A stretch of DNA of 64,000 nt, taken from Bacteroidota bacterium. Its GTDB lineage: Bacteria; Bacteroidota; Bacteroidia; Bacteroidales; GCA-2711565. Location: positions 254,554 to 318,553 of the forward strand of contig JAHIVC010000099.1 of the NCBI GenBank assembly GCA_018816945.1, in the 5' to 3' direction. Shown one piece after another: positions 46,699-50,441 of the stretch. The translations under genes and the position numbers were made by a program. The notes below the pieces were generated by a model, which was given only the letters and a program-made list of their open reading frames with translations, was not told the origin of the DNA and did not search any database. Each line of letters begins with the position of its first letter. Positions within the stretch are counted from its first letter, which is position 1.

Positions 46699-48645
46699 TT
46701 GATAAAACCAGAAACCATACAAGAGATTTTTGAAACTGCCAAAATTGATGAAGTTGTTGGTGATTTTGTTTCGTTGAAACGCAGGGGAATAAACCTTATC
46801 GGACTTTGCCCGTTTCATAATGAAAAAACACCCTCGTTTACTGTTTCTCCTGCCAAGGGAATTTATAAATGTTTTGGTTGTGGTAAGGGTGGAAATGCAG
46901 TCAATTTCATCATGGATCATGAGCATTATACTTACCCTGAGGCTTTAAAATATCTGGCTCATAAGTATAATGTCGAAATTGATGAGGAAGAGCGAACACC
47001 TGAAATGCTTCAACAGCATAGCTCGATGGAGGGCTTATTTCATGTTTCGGCCTTCGCCCAGAAATATTTTTCGGAAACACTTAATAATACAGAGGAAGGC
47101 AAAGCAATTGGGCTGTCCTACTTTTTGGAACGGGATTTTACGGAAGAAACCATCCTTAAATTTCAGTTGGGTTATTGTTTGGATAAATTCGATGATTTTT
47201 CAAAAACTGCTTTAAAAGAGGGATACAAAAAAGAACAACTGATCAAGTCGGGTTTAAGCATTGAAAATGATCAAAATATTTTTGACCGCTTTAAAGCGAG
47301 GGTAATTTTCCCAATTCATAATTTAACAGGCAGGGTTGTTGGTTTTGGCGGGCGAATTTTAAGCAGTGAAAAAAGCAAGGCGAAATATATAAATTCGCCC
47401 GAATCGGATATTTACAATAAGAGCAAGGTTTTGTATGGGATTTTTTATGCAAAAAATGCCATTTTAAAGAATGATGATTGCTTGTTGGTTGAAGGCTATA
47501 CCGATGTAATTTCACTGCATCAGGCCGGGATTGAAAATGTGGTTGCTTCATCGGGAACTTCGCTTACGATCGATCAGATTAAACTCATCAAGAGATTCAC
47601 TCCCAACATCACGATTTTATATGATGGAGATGCCGCAGGTTTAAAAGCTTCTTTCCGGGGGATCGACATGATTTTGGAAGCTGGCATGAACGTAAAGATT
47701 GTCCTTTTCCCGGATGGAGAAGATCCGGATTCTTACGCTAGAAATCATTCGAGGGACGATGTTAAAGATTTTATTAAAAAAAATGCTGCTGATTTTATTT
47801 CATTAAAGACCAATTTATTGGTCAGGGAATCGGATAAGGATCCTTTAAAAAAGGCCGCTTTAATTAAAGAAATTGTCCAAACGATTGCCCTGATCCCTGA
47901 TGGGATTTACCGCTCGGTTTATTTAAAAGAGTGCAGCTCGATCATGGATATTGCCGAACAAACATTGGTAAACGAGCTGAATAAACTGCTTCGTAAAAAA
48001 TTTAAAGATCAAAATAAAGAAGAATCTTCTGAAGAGATTCCGCAATATGCGGTTCCTGATCTGAAGGAAAAATACGAGGTTGAGCGATTTGATACACTTA
48101 CTCACGAACGCGAGATTATCCGATTATTGCTTACTTATGCCGATCAGGAAATAATTTTTGACGATATTGATGAAAATGATCGAAAAATTGAGGTCCCGAT
48201 CAAGATTGCCGAATATGTAATCCACGATTTAAAATCGGATGAAATTGGCTTTCATGATGCAGAATTGCAGTTAATTTTTAATGAGTTCGATCGAGCGCTT
48301 GAAAATGGCACCATTTTATCGAGCGAATTTTTCACGCAAAATCCGGATGCAAAGCTATCAAAACTGGCCATTGATTTAATGGCAACACCTTATGAACTAA
48401 GTGATAATTGGTTGCGAAAACGAATCCCGGTTAAGCACGAAAGTGATAATTTGATTAAGCTTATTACCTCCTGTGTTTTATCATTTAAGGCTAAAAAAAT
48501 TGATCAGATGATTTTGGATAATCAGAAGGAACTCAATGAAGTTGTTGACCCAACTGAATTTATGTTGCGACAGCAAAAACATATGAGTTTAAAAACCATC
48601 AGTATTGAAATTAACAAAGAATTGAGCCGGATTATAACAAAGTAA
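46699..48645 (+). CDS. dnaG: DNA primase
   Basis: 648 residues. TTG at 46699 starts the conserved N-terminus IKPETIQEIFE; an in-frame TGA lies just upstream and no ATG fits. Zinc domain CPFHNEKTPSF ... CFGCGKGG, TOPRIM motifs LLVEGYTDV and LYDGDAAG, and a C-terminal helical domain that binds the replicative helicase. It makes replication primers. It stands alone, without rpoD nearby. Confidence 0.96.
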   Translation: MIKPETIQEIFETAKIDEVVGDFVSLKRRGINLIGLCPFHNEKTPSFTVSPAKGIYKCFGCGKGGNAVNFIMDHEHYTYPEALKYLAHKYNVEIDEEERTPEMLQQHSSMEGLFHVSAFAQKYFSETLNNTEEGKAIGLSYFLERDFTEETILKFQLGYCLDKFDDFSKTALKEGYKKEQLIKSGLSIENDQNIFDRFKARVIFPIHNLTGRVVGFGGRILSSEKSKAKYINSPESDIYNKSKVLYGIFYAKNAILKNDDCLLVEGYTDVISLHQAGIENVVASSGTSLTIDQIKLIKRFTPNITILYDGDAAGLKASFRGIDMILEAGMNVKIVLFPDGEDPDSYARNHSRDDVKDFIKKNAADFISLKTNLLVRESDKDPLKKAALIKEIVQTIALIPDGIYRSVYLKECSSIMDIAEQTLVNELNKLLRKKFKDQNKEESSEEIPQYAVPDLKEKYEVERFDTLTHEREIIRLLLTYADQEIIFDDIDENDRKIEVPIKIAEYVIHDLKSDEIGFHDAELQLIFNEFDRALENGTILSSEFFTQNPDAKLSKLAIDLMATPYELSDNWLRKRIPVKHESDNLIKLITSCVLSFKAKKIDQMILDNQKELNEVVDPTEFMLRQQKHMSLKTISIEINKELSRIITK

Positions 48646-48679: not shown

Positions 48680-48867
48680 TAGCCGAAATTCTGCCAGATG
48701 TTATACCCACCGAAGGAGGGCAGGCTGGAATCCCGAGAACGTGCATTAAGCAGCAGTCGAAATGTAATTGAGGGATCAGAGGGTTATAATTAACTTGCCT
48801 AATAGCAGTCAGGTTCCCGGCATTTTGATGCGGATTATAAAAATAAATTCCATTAAGACATTAGAAA

Positions 48868-48999
48868 TTAGACGTTAGAAAAAGTCCTCCTTTGTCTAAC
48901 GTCTAAAATCTAAGATCTAAAATCTTGAAGATCCCGATATGCTTCGCAATCGGGATTTGTTCGCCTTGATTATTTTACTTCGTAATACTCGTAAAATAA
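48868..48999. repeat. Run of three inverted repeats
   Basis: TTAGACGTTAGA/TCTAACGTCTAA (48868-48879 and 48895-48906, 12 bp perfect, 15-base loop), ATCCCGAT/ATCGGGAT (48931-48956) and TTATTTTAC/GTAAAATAA (48970-48999). TTAGA and TCTAA units are repeated on both sides of the first. These are typical intergenic repeat elements and lie directly beside the candidate RNA. Confidence 0.6.
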
Positions 49000-49375
49000 T
49001 AGGCTTACAAAAACACAACGGGAACCCATTCTCGCCGAATGAATTCCCGCTCACGCCCTTTGTACCGTAGCACTCCGTTTGTGCCAAGTTACCGTTATTT
49101 TGACTAGCTTTTTTTGGTTTCACCCCGAAGGGATTTTCCGTTTGCCCGGTGTTTTCGAATTAGTCCACCTTTCGGTTCAACTTCATCGTGTTCACCCCAG
49201 ATCTCAAAACTTGCTTCAAATCCAACTTACCTTGCGGTTCGTCTTTTTTCAAGTGTGAGTGCCTGATTTGTTCCTTGCGGTACTTTCAATCCACTCTTCG
49301 TTTTTCGATTGGCCTTTTATCGCTCACTTGGTGATTCAAATATAGTATCAAGACGAGGGCGATACCAACTTTTTT
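49000..49375 (-). ncRNA. Candidate structured RNA of unknown family
   Basis: This gene-free segment is visibly richer in G+C than its surroundings. Minus-strand hairpins are capped by stable tetraloops: CC-GCAA-GG at 49230-49237 and 49273-49280, CC-GAAA-GG at 49168-49175 and CCC-TTCG-GGG at 49123-49132. CTCACTTG (49322-49329) can pair with CAAGTGTGAG (49250-49259), and GTATC/GATAC (49345-49365) closes the 5' end. I found no RNase P, tmRNA, SRP RNA or group II intron signature. No clear promoter is seen. The ends are approximate. Confidence 0.5.
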
Positions 49376-49511: not shown

Positions 49512-50441
49512 ATGGCTACAAAAATAAAAGAACTCGAATTTAAAAAGATACTTGAAATGCTTAATGAATTCGATTCTGATTCGGTTTATGAGGAAGTGAA
49601 TATTCTTCCGAATAGTGAAGATTTAAGGGCACAGGTTGAGAAATATGTAGATACAAAATCGATTAATAAACGCTCGGTATTTGGGATTGATATTTATCGG
49701 TATGGTATGTATAATCATCTGGAACAAACCCTCATTCCGCCTGTATTTAAAATTTTGTTCAATAAAGCCATTAAATTGAGCCTTGAAAACAATCAATTCG
49801 TATTTCAGAAATACACAAAGGAAAGTATTGAAAATGCATTTATAAGTACAGGAGATGGAGGCTTCGTAATTTTTGACAATCCGCTTCATGCCTTATTTTT
49901 TGCAATCAATTTTGAAATGCTGGTGAGGGCGTATAACTCATACCACTTATATCCAAAGTTGCGCGACATAACCGGGAGCATCAGTTTAAGGTACGCGATC
50001 ACAACCGATACCATACATTCATTTGATCATAATTTTTACGGAACCGCCATCATAAATAATTCACGGATACTTGAAAAAGATTCATTAAACCGCTGTTTAA
50101 TTGATCAGGATACCTATAATTGGTTTTTGATCAATATCGATGGAATTGAAAACCTTCAGGTATTGACCATTAGGGAGATTGCGAATATTTACGAATTTCA
50201 AGATTACGACCGAACATTTTTGAGTGGTGAAAATGAAATCATGAATACGCGGGTAAGTCGTTATTCGGGGATCATCAATTCAGATATTTCTAAAATCGGA
50301 CAGATAAAGTCAAAAGAAATGAATTTGAATATTTATAATCTTCACCTGCAAGTTACCATGAAAGCATCATCATCGGCGAAAAGCAAAAGTCAAAGAACGA
50401 TCACGATCAGTATCGGAAACTTAAATACCTCCGGTATCTAA
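49512..50441 (+). CDS. Divergent class III nucleotide cyclase-like protein
   Basis: 309 residues, no signal peptide or membrane segment. Cyclase-like landmarks: FGIDIYRYG with Asp60 at the first metal position, STGDGGFVIF with Asp115 at the second, LRYAITTD, and NFYGTAIINNSRIL with Arg185 and Asn182/183 near the transition-state Asn/Arg positions (spacing off by one). The base-selecting residues are not recognisable. The N-terminal 50 residues may be a coiled coil, and the last 60 residues are unassigned. It could be an adenylate or other cyclase, or a catalytically dead relative. Confidence 0.6.
   Translation: MATKIKELEFKKILEMLNEFDSDSVYEEVNILPNSEDLRAQVEKYVDTKSINKRSVFGIDIYRYGMYNHLEQTLIPPVFKILFNKAIKLSLENNQFVFQKYTKESIENAFISTGDGGFVIFDNPLHALFFAINFEMLVRAYNSYHLYPKLRDITGSISLRYAITTDTIHSFDHNFYGTAIINNSRILEKDSLNRCLIDQDTYNWFLINIDGIENLQVLTIREIANIYEFQDYDRTFLSGENEIMNTRVSRYSGIINSDISKIGQIKSKEMNLNIYNLHLQVTMKASSSAKSKSQRTITISIGNLNTSGI

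Follow-up and report, generated by a model that had tools for sequence, protein, structure and literature searches.

A Probable Family of Structured Noncoding RNAs in the Class Bacteroidia, Recognized in a Gene-Free Gap Downstream of dnaG

Introduction

What is encoded in the 866-bp gap that separates the end of dnaG (48645) from the start of the next open reading frame (ORF; 49512) in the window, that is, the whole 64,000-nucleotide stretch of Bacteroidota DNA analysed here? The initial annotation, made from the letters alone, proposed that this gene-free gap contains a G+C-rich segment (49000-49375) whose minus strand encodes a structured RNA not described before. Both the gap size and the composition were borne out by measurement, the GC content being 45.5% in the RNA segment versus 34.9% in the whole window, and 37.3% and 26.8% in the flanking parts of the gap, toward dnaG and away from it, respectively.

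Few noncoding RNAs are both large and conserved, and those whose function has been worked out have mostly proved to be central machines or regulators. The comparisons described below indicate that the segment is almost certainly the gene of an independent structured noncoding RNA family, which is previously uncatalogued and belongs to the class Bacteroidia.

Locus and Transcription Signals

The predicted RNA is framed by recognizable signals at both ends (Table 1). Directly upstream of it the promoter has the layout TTG-N21-TATATTTG, which fits the Bacteroides sigma consensus of TAnnTTTG with a TTTG-like box upstream (PMC7366714), and in 101 of 142 relatives TTG is located 20-21 nt ahead of TAnnTTTG. 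At the opposite end a terminator hairpin is followed by a U-rich tail, and a tail of the UGUUUU type is found in nearly all relatives. These elements show that the RNA gene possesses the predicted signals of its own housekeeping-type promoter and of an intrinsic terminator. The originally proposed extent was close and was revised to 49008-49332, the surplus 40 nt on the 5' side being promoter. The GTATC/GATAC helix, which had been taken to close the RNA, falls at 49341-49366, inside the promoter spacer and upstream of the likely start, and is probably untranscribed, given its place between the -33 and -7 boxes.

Two further features of the neighbourhood were observed. Between dnaG and the RNA terminator there is an imperfect inverted repeat of 32 nt accompanied by the direct repeats TCTAACGTCTAAAA/TCTAAGATCTAAAA; this element looks like a small intergenic repeat. 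In addition, homologues of the 309-aa ORF (ORF309) adjoin the RNA gene at 8 loci in several families.

Table 1: Features of the RNA gene and its surroundings, in positions of the window
Feature	Position	Strand	Basis
dnaG	46699-48645	plus	Pfam DNAG_N, Zn_ribbon_DnaG, Toprim
Intergenic repeat	48853-48921		sequence
RNA, about 325 nt	49008..49332	minus	5' end inferred from promoter, 3' end from terminator
U-rich tail UUGUGUUUUUG of terminator	49008..49018	minus	sequence; first bases also close terminator stem
Terminator hairpin CGGGAAUUCAUUC...GAAUGGGUUCCCG	49017..49051	minus	covariation helix 3, 95% of cells paired
3' hairpin	49052..49083	minus	CAC/GUG outer pairs around GUGC(UACG)GUAC stem-loop, UNCG type; covariation helices 1 and 2
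P1 3' strand ACUUGG	49084..49089	minus	covariation with P1 5' strand
Conserved internal loop, 3' strand AAAAUAACGGUA	49090..49101	minus	AAC and final A invariant
P2 3' strand GUC	49102..49104	minus	covariation with P2 5' strand
Variable middle domain, GNRA/UUCG-capped hairpins	49105..49311	minus	tetraloop enrichment; subfamily covariation in another family
Tetraloop hairpin CCCUUCGGGG	in 49121-49134	minus	sequence
Tetraloop hairpin GAACCGAAAGGU	in 49165-49180	minus	sequence
Tetraloop hairpin AACCGCAAGGUAAG	in 49226-49241	minus	sequence
Tetraloop hairpin GUACCGCAAGGAAC	49270-49283	minus	sequence
P2 5' strand GGC	49312..49314	minus	pairs with 49102-49104
Conserved internal loop, 5' strand GAGCGAUAAAA	49315..49325	minus	G12, A13, U14, A15 invariant in 43 diverse members
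P1 5' strand CCAAGU	49326..49331	minus	covariation with 49084-49089
-7 element TATATTTG	49337..49344	minus	sequence; position-weight matrix in relatives
-33 element TTG, Bacteroidota-type promoter	49366..49368	minus	sequence; Bacteroides consensus
ORF, 309 aa, unannotated	49512-50441	plus, divergent from RNA	no Pfam match

Relatives and Distribution

When the segment was used as BLASTN query, matches were obtained in 11 of 99 genomes with only the two ends alignable, and the oriented relatives displayed a 5' motif (YCAAGUGAGNGAUAAAAGGC) and a 3' motif (GUCAYAAUAACAGUARCUUGG) with a variable stretch between them. A first covariance model, comprising the 98-nt 3' domain and built from 8 sequences, found matches in 91 of 393 genomes of the same order, distributed over about 36 families, and in 4 of 296 genomes of a phylum sample that included the genome of the window. 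The second model, built from 107 sequences, matched 43 of 395 genomes in a class sample and 17 of 148 in a different order. Scanning GTDB contigs for the pattern yielded 34 named ones, most of them from uncultured Bacteroidales and some binned as Cyclobacteriaceae, Flammeovirgaceae, or Flavobacteriales with good model scores; a contig binned as Terriglobia, which had a chance-level model score, was left out of the count.

Because the covariance model knew the 3' domain only, matches to the 5' motif provide an independent confirmation. The position-weight matrix of promoter (TAnnTTTG) plus 5' motif, trained on relatives and applied with a threshold of 10, recognized a site upstream of 109 of the 118 3'-domain matches, the best background score being 2.2, and gave RNA lengths of 244-651 nt (a value of 860 was an artefact of a tandem pair). 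The 5' motif also accompanied 34 of the 53 matches in the widened set, some of them RNAs of about 235 nt encoded by small genomes. In total 142 distinct RNAs were collected, with a median length of 424 nt and a range of 234-715 nt, and the carriers represent considerably more than 100 species of Bacteroidia. The weakest model matches lacking the 5' motif (E of about 1e-4 to 1e-3; e.g., L195, L200, L208, and L210) are probably false and were not counted.

The spread is patchy, with a detectable member in about one-quarter of the sampled genera of the order. Most genomes contain one copy and some contain two, which may reside at separate loci (e.g., in genomes G012 and G129). Tandem duplicates of the gene, spaced 0.4-1.5 kb from each other, were also observed in unrelated families (L148, at 236 and 1730; L025, at 1501 and 1985; L110; L122; L203; L204). 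The order dnaG-RNA-ORF309 is kept over several families, and this synteny is consistent with vertical descent accompanied by frequent loss or divergence. In one genome of the same genus (G003) the RNA is absent; since dnaG is missing there too, this absence may represent an assembly gap. Twelve dnaG loci from other non-carriers yielded no divergent RNA copy.

Three RNAs of one family (f121; L202, L198, and L194) deserve separate description. They have a Bacteroidota promoter, a 5' AUCAAGAACGAMGUAYUUUGACAG, a 3' ACUUGAUGC, a UACG hairpin, and a terminator, and retain P1 complementarity with loss of the GAUAAAAG/AAUAAC loop (model E of about 1e-4). Judging from these elements, they are possibly a distant version of the family.

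Conserved Core

The helix P1, with the consensus YCARGY/RCYUGR, is a long-range one that joins the RNA ends across 200-600 nt. Its covariation was evaluated in 43 members with similarity below about 0.78, where 96.5% of P1 cells were paired and five of the six pairs had both-side changes, the outermost pair being seen as CG, UA, UG, AU, and GC. Inward from P1 there follow a near-invariant internal loop (AGNGAUAAAA / AAUAACNGUA) and then P2, which is only 3 bp long in most members, was paired in 88% of cells, and had both-side changes at all three pairs in the same 43 members. The loop is purine-rich, with the consensus GAGNGAUAAAA / AYAAUAACNGUA, and its GAUA and AAC, one on each strand, were unvarying in this diverse set. 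A sarcin-ricin/loop-E reading of AGUA...GAG beside P1 was considered and is not claimed, because the variants ACA, AUA, and CCA replace GUA.

The long-range CTCACTTG/CAAGTGTGAG pairing suggested in the initial annotation proved to be unconserved (5.2 bp observed versus 4.8 in shuffles); CTCACTTG pairs elsewhere, and the strand that really pairs with CCAAGU is ACUUGG at 49084-49089. Thus both helices named there are replaced by P1 and P2, while its central idea, a new structured RNA read from the minus strand, is supported by homologues with strong covariation in P1, P2, and the 3' domain.

The 3' Domain and the Middle Domain

Just 3' of P1 the relatives have two hairpins, one of the UNCG type and one belonging to the terminator. 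In the 3' domain as a whole 26 pairs were 91.6% paired over 105 distinct sequences, as against 65.5% in shuffled and at most 51% in slid alignments, and both-side changes occurred at all 26 pairs. This 105-sequence alignment is fitted to the model; in the unfitted alignment of 8 sequences 90.9% were paired and both-side changes were seen at 17 of the 26 pairs.

The middle domain is variable in sequence and size, and its common property is the abundance of stable tetraloops. All four tetraloop hairpins initially noticed on the minus strand were located in the sequence, and the density of such loops is far above expectation throughout the family: over the 142 relatives the words CUUCGG, CGCAAG, and CGAAAG occurred 115, 99, and 116 times versus 9, 16, and 35 expected, respectively. 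In one subfamily of 425 nt unguided RNAalifold predicted 78 pairs, 32 of them with compensatory changes; the middle domain came out as branched, and both core helices (P1 and P2) reappeared along with the 3' hairpin and the terminator. The single-sequence fold was moderately better than shuffles (z = -2.23 for the minus strand and -1.39 for the plus strand), so the case rests on the relatives.

The word GUUCUUU was also seen to recur 3' of P2, with 44 occurrences versus 3.2 expected in 42 of the 142 RNAs, belonging to otherwise dissimilar subfamilies (e.g., L024:1172-1597, L148, and L050).

Known RNA Families and Other Gene Classes

Covariance models of Rfam 15 gave no gathering-level match over the window except one tRNA, relaxing the cut-off to E = 10 brought only chance-level matches in the gap, and no match was obtained for the RNA in 10 and 13 relative loci. 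Neither a known family nor a protein gene nor a known repeat was matched. The initial annotation could not match the RNA to RNase P, tmRNA, or 6S, and separate RNAs of these kinds are located elsewhere in the same genome: the RNase P RNA (RF00010) at G000:C37:7610-8026, the tmRNA (RF00023) at G000:C30:74960-75327, and a 6S-flavo-like RNA at G000:C60:32105-32241. The architecture also differs from 6S, as the loop is flanked by the 6-bp P1 and the 3-bp P2 only and not by extended helices.

The absence of a weak Rfam 6S match in all 13 carriers (0/13) had hinted at mutual exclusion, with the RNA as a 6S replacement, and this candidate was rejected because a rebuilt model finds a 6S-like RNA in the same genome and in many carriers. 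The 6S-flavo-like RNA (ACUCAACAUUA...AACAGGCC...GUGGACGUUCGA), with a model made from 9 weak matches, was present in 332 of the 393 sampled genomes of the order, and the cut-off of RF01685 was reached in 0 of 60 genomes; RF01685 is apparently too restrictive for these bacteria.

A gene for a small peptide or protein was rejected as well, since the median longest ORF of the 142 relatives was 28 aa versus 31 in shuffles. No reverse transcriptase, as in a retron, is adjacent, the neighbours being dnaG and an ORF with no Pfam match. The 110 downstream genes fall into 70 clusters (62 genes on the same strand and 48 on the opposite one), and among them the RNA holds no consistent place upstream of related genes, as a riboswitch or leader would; nor was any protein-coding gene consistently linked to the RNA among its neighbours. 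Such widely different neighbouring genes imply that the RNA is not a cis-element. Viral contigs, phage records, and plasmid records contained no match to the RNA. In the openly accessible article texts on large or structured Bacteroidota RNAs no description of the motif was found, and an earlier one is conceivable. The family probably escaped Rfam because most carriers are uncultured and the size of the middle domain varies.

Discussion

According to these data we infer that the RNA most likely has a trans-acting role of the ribonucleoprotein type, with the internal loop as the binding site. The P1-loop-P2 clamp would be the functional site, binding a conserved protein or another macromolecule, most likely a protein; the middle domain may serve as a rigid scaffold giving stability or presenting the partner, with its exact hairpins being changeable; and the RNA would act as a stable ribonucleoprotein and not as an mRNA leader or messenger. 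Such a scaffold mechanism, drawn from analogy to other large RNAs, is put forward tentatively and with less than even confidence, and for the joint reading of an independent, trans-acting structured RNA family working by this mechanism the chances appear balanced.

Several large RNAs offer comparison. The raiA-motif/ModT and OLE RNAs are large structured bacterial noncoding RNAs (PMC11706538, PMC12286853), and like them the present RNA is several hundred nucleotides long, structured, independently acting, and found in many species without a single linked gene; however, it has no Rfam match to either, was found here only in Bacteroidota, and has the P1-loop-P2 clamp as its core, with a middle domain that varies in length. 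GOLLD and ROOL are large, ornate RNAs borne by phages or plasmids (PMC12286853); the RNA described here is also large and rich in stable tetraloops but has no viral, phage, plasmid, or Rfam match and varies three-fold in size. With 6S RNA (6S-flavo, RF01685) it shares the character of a trans-acting Bacteroidota housekeeping RNA, although the sequences do not match and both RNAs occur in one genome. Y RNAs and similar molecules combine paired 5' and 3' ends, a conserved protein site in an internal loop, and a middle part of variable size. At the level of this general description the present RNA resembles them in its paired ends, internal-loop element, and variable middle, while no sequence resemblance was noted and the 3' UNCG hairpin and terminator lie outside the closing helix here; no linked Ro/Rsr gene was seen in the window.

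Among the other explanations the one that survives best, still an unlikely one, is a trans-acting small RNA that base-pairs with mRNAs via loops or linkers of the variable domain, such as GUUCUUU, with the core providing stability or chaperone binding. The enrichment of this word at a similar place in several subfamilies agrees with such pairing, as do the purine-rich single-stranded linkers, but most members have no GUUCUUU, the best-conserved unpaired stretch lies within the closed internal loop beside P1, and both the length (up to 715 nt) and the structure are atypical of a base-pairing small RNA.

It is improbable, to a greater degree, that the invariant P1/P2 internal loop is the active site of a ligand-binding or catalytic RNA. 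GAUAA and AAC are near-invariant while the flanking helices vary freely, and the large scaffold with stable tetraloops is reminiscent of structured ribozymes; against this, the core folds into a very simple secondary structure, none of the known Rfam ribozymes is similar, and the RNA has no riboswitch-like gene link.

A regulatory role as a decoy in the manner of CsrB/RsmZ, sequestering a CsrA-like or another RNA-binding protein, would account for the many small hairpins with GCAAGGA/GGA elements and is more doubtful again, for the core is conserved and non-repetitive and the enriched words are tetraloops and not a repeated protein site; the CsrA version is contradicted, as CsrA is missing from the same genome and present in 1 of 41 relatives only. 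Finally, a cis-acting leader, 3'-UTR element, or mobile element, for which the intergenic position and the tandem duplicates (in the genomes of L148, L025, L110, and L122) could be cited, is hardly credible and already contradicted by the RNA's own promoter and terminator, by the diverse and often oppositely oriented downstream genes, by the usually single copy, and by the lack of matches in viral contigs, phages, and plasmids.

Conclusions

The independent structured RNA family proposed here is rather probably an ancient Bacteroidota-specific class of large ribonucleoprotein or otherwise functional RNA, to be placed beside RNase P, tmRNA, and 6S, in which the loop described above would be an undescribed functional site and the middle (the whole RNA being about 230-715 nt) would have been remodelled freely. 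The RNA is spread over dozens of Bacteroidia families. With its core motif, models, and boundaries defined, experiments can now be aimed directly at its partner, targets, and phenotype.
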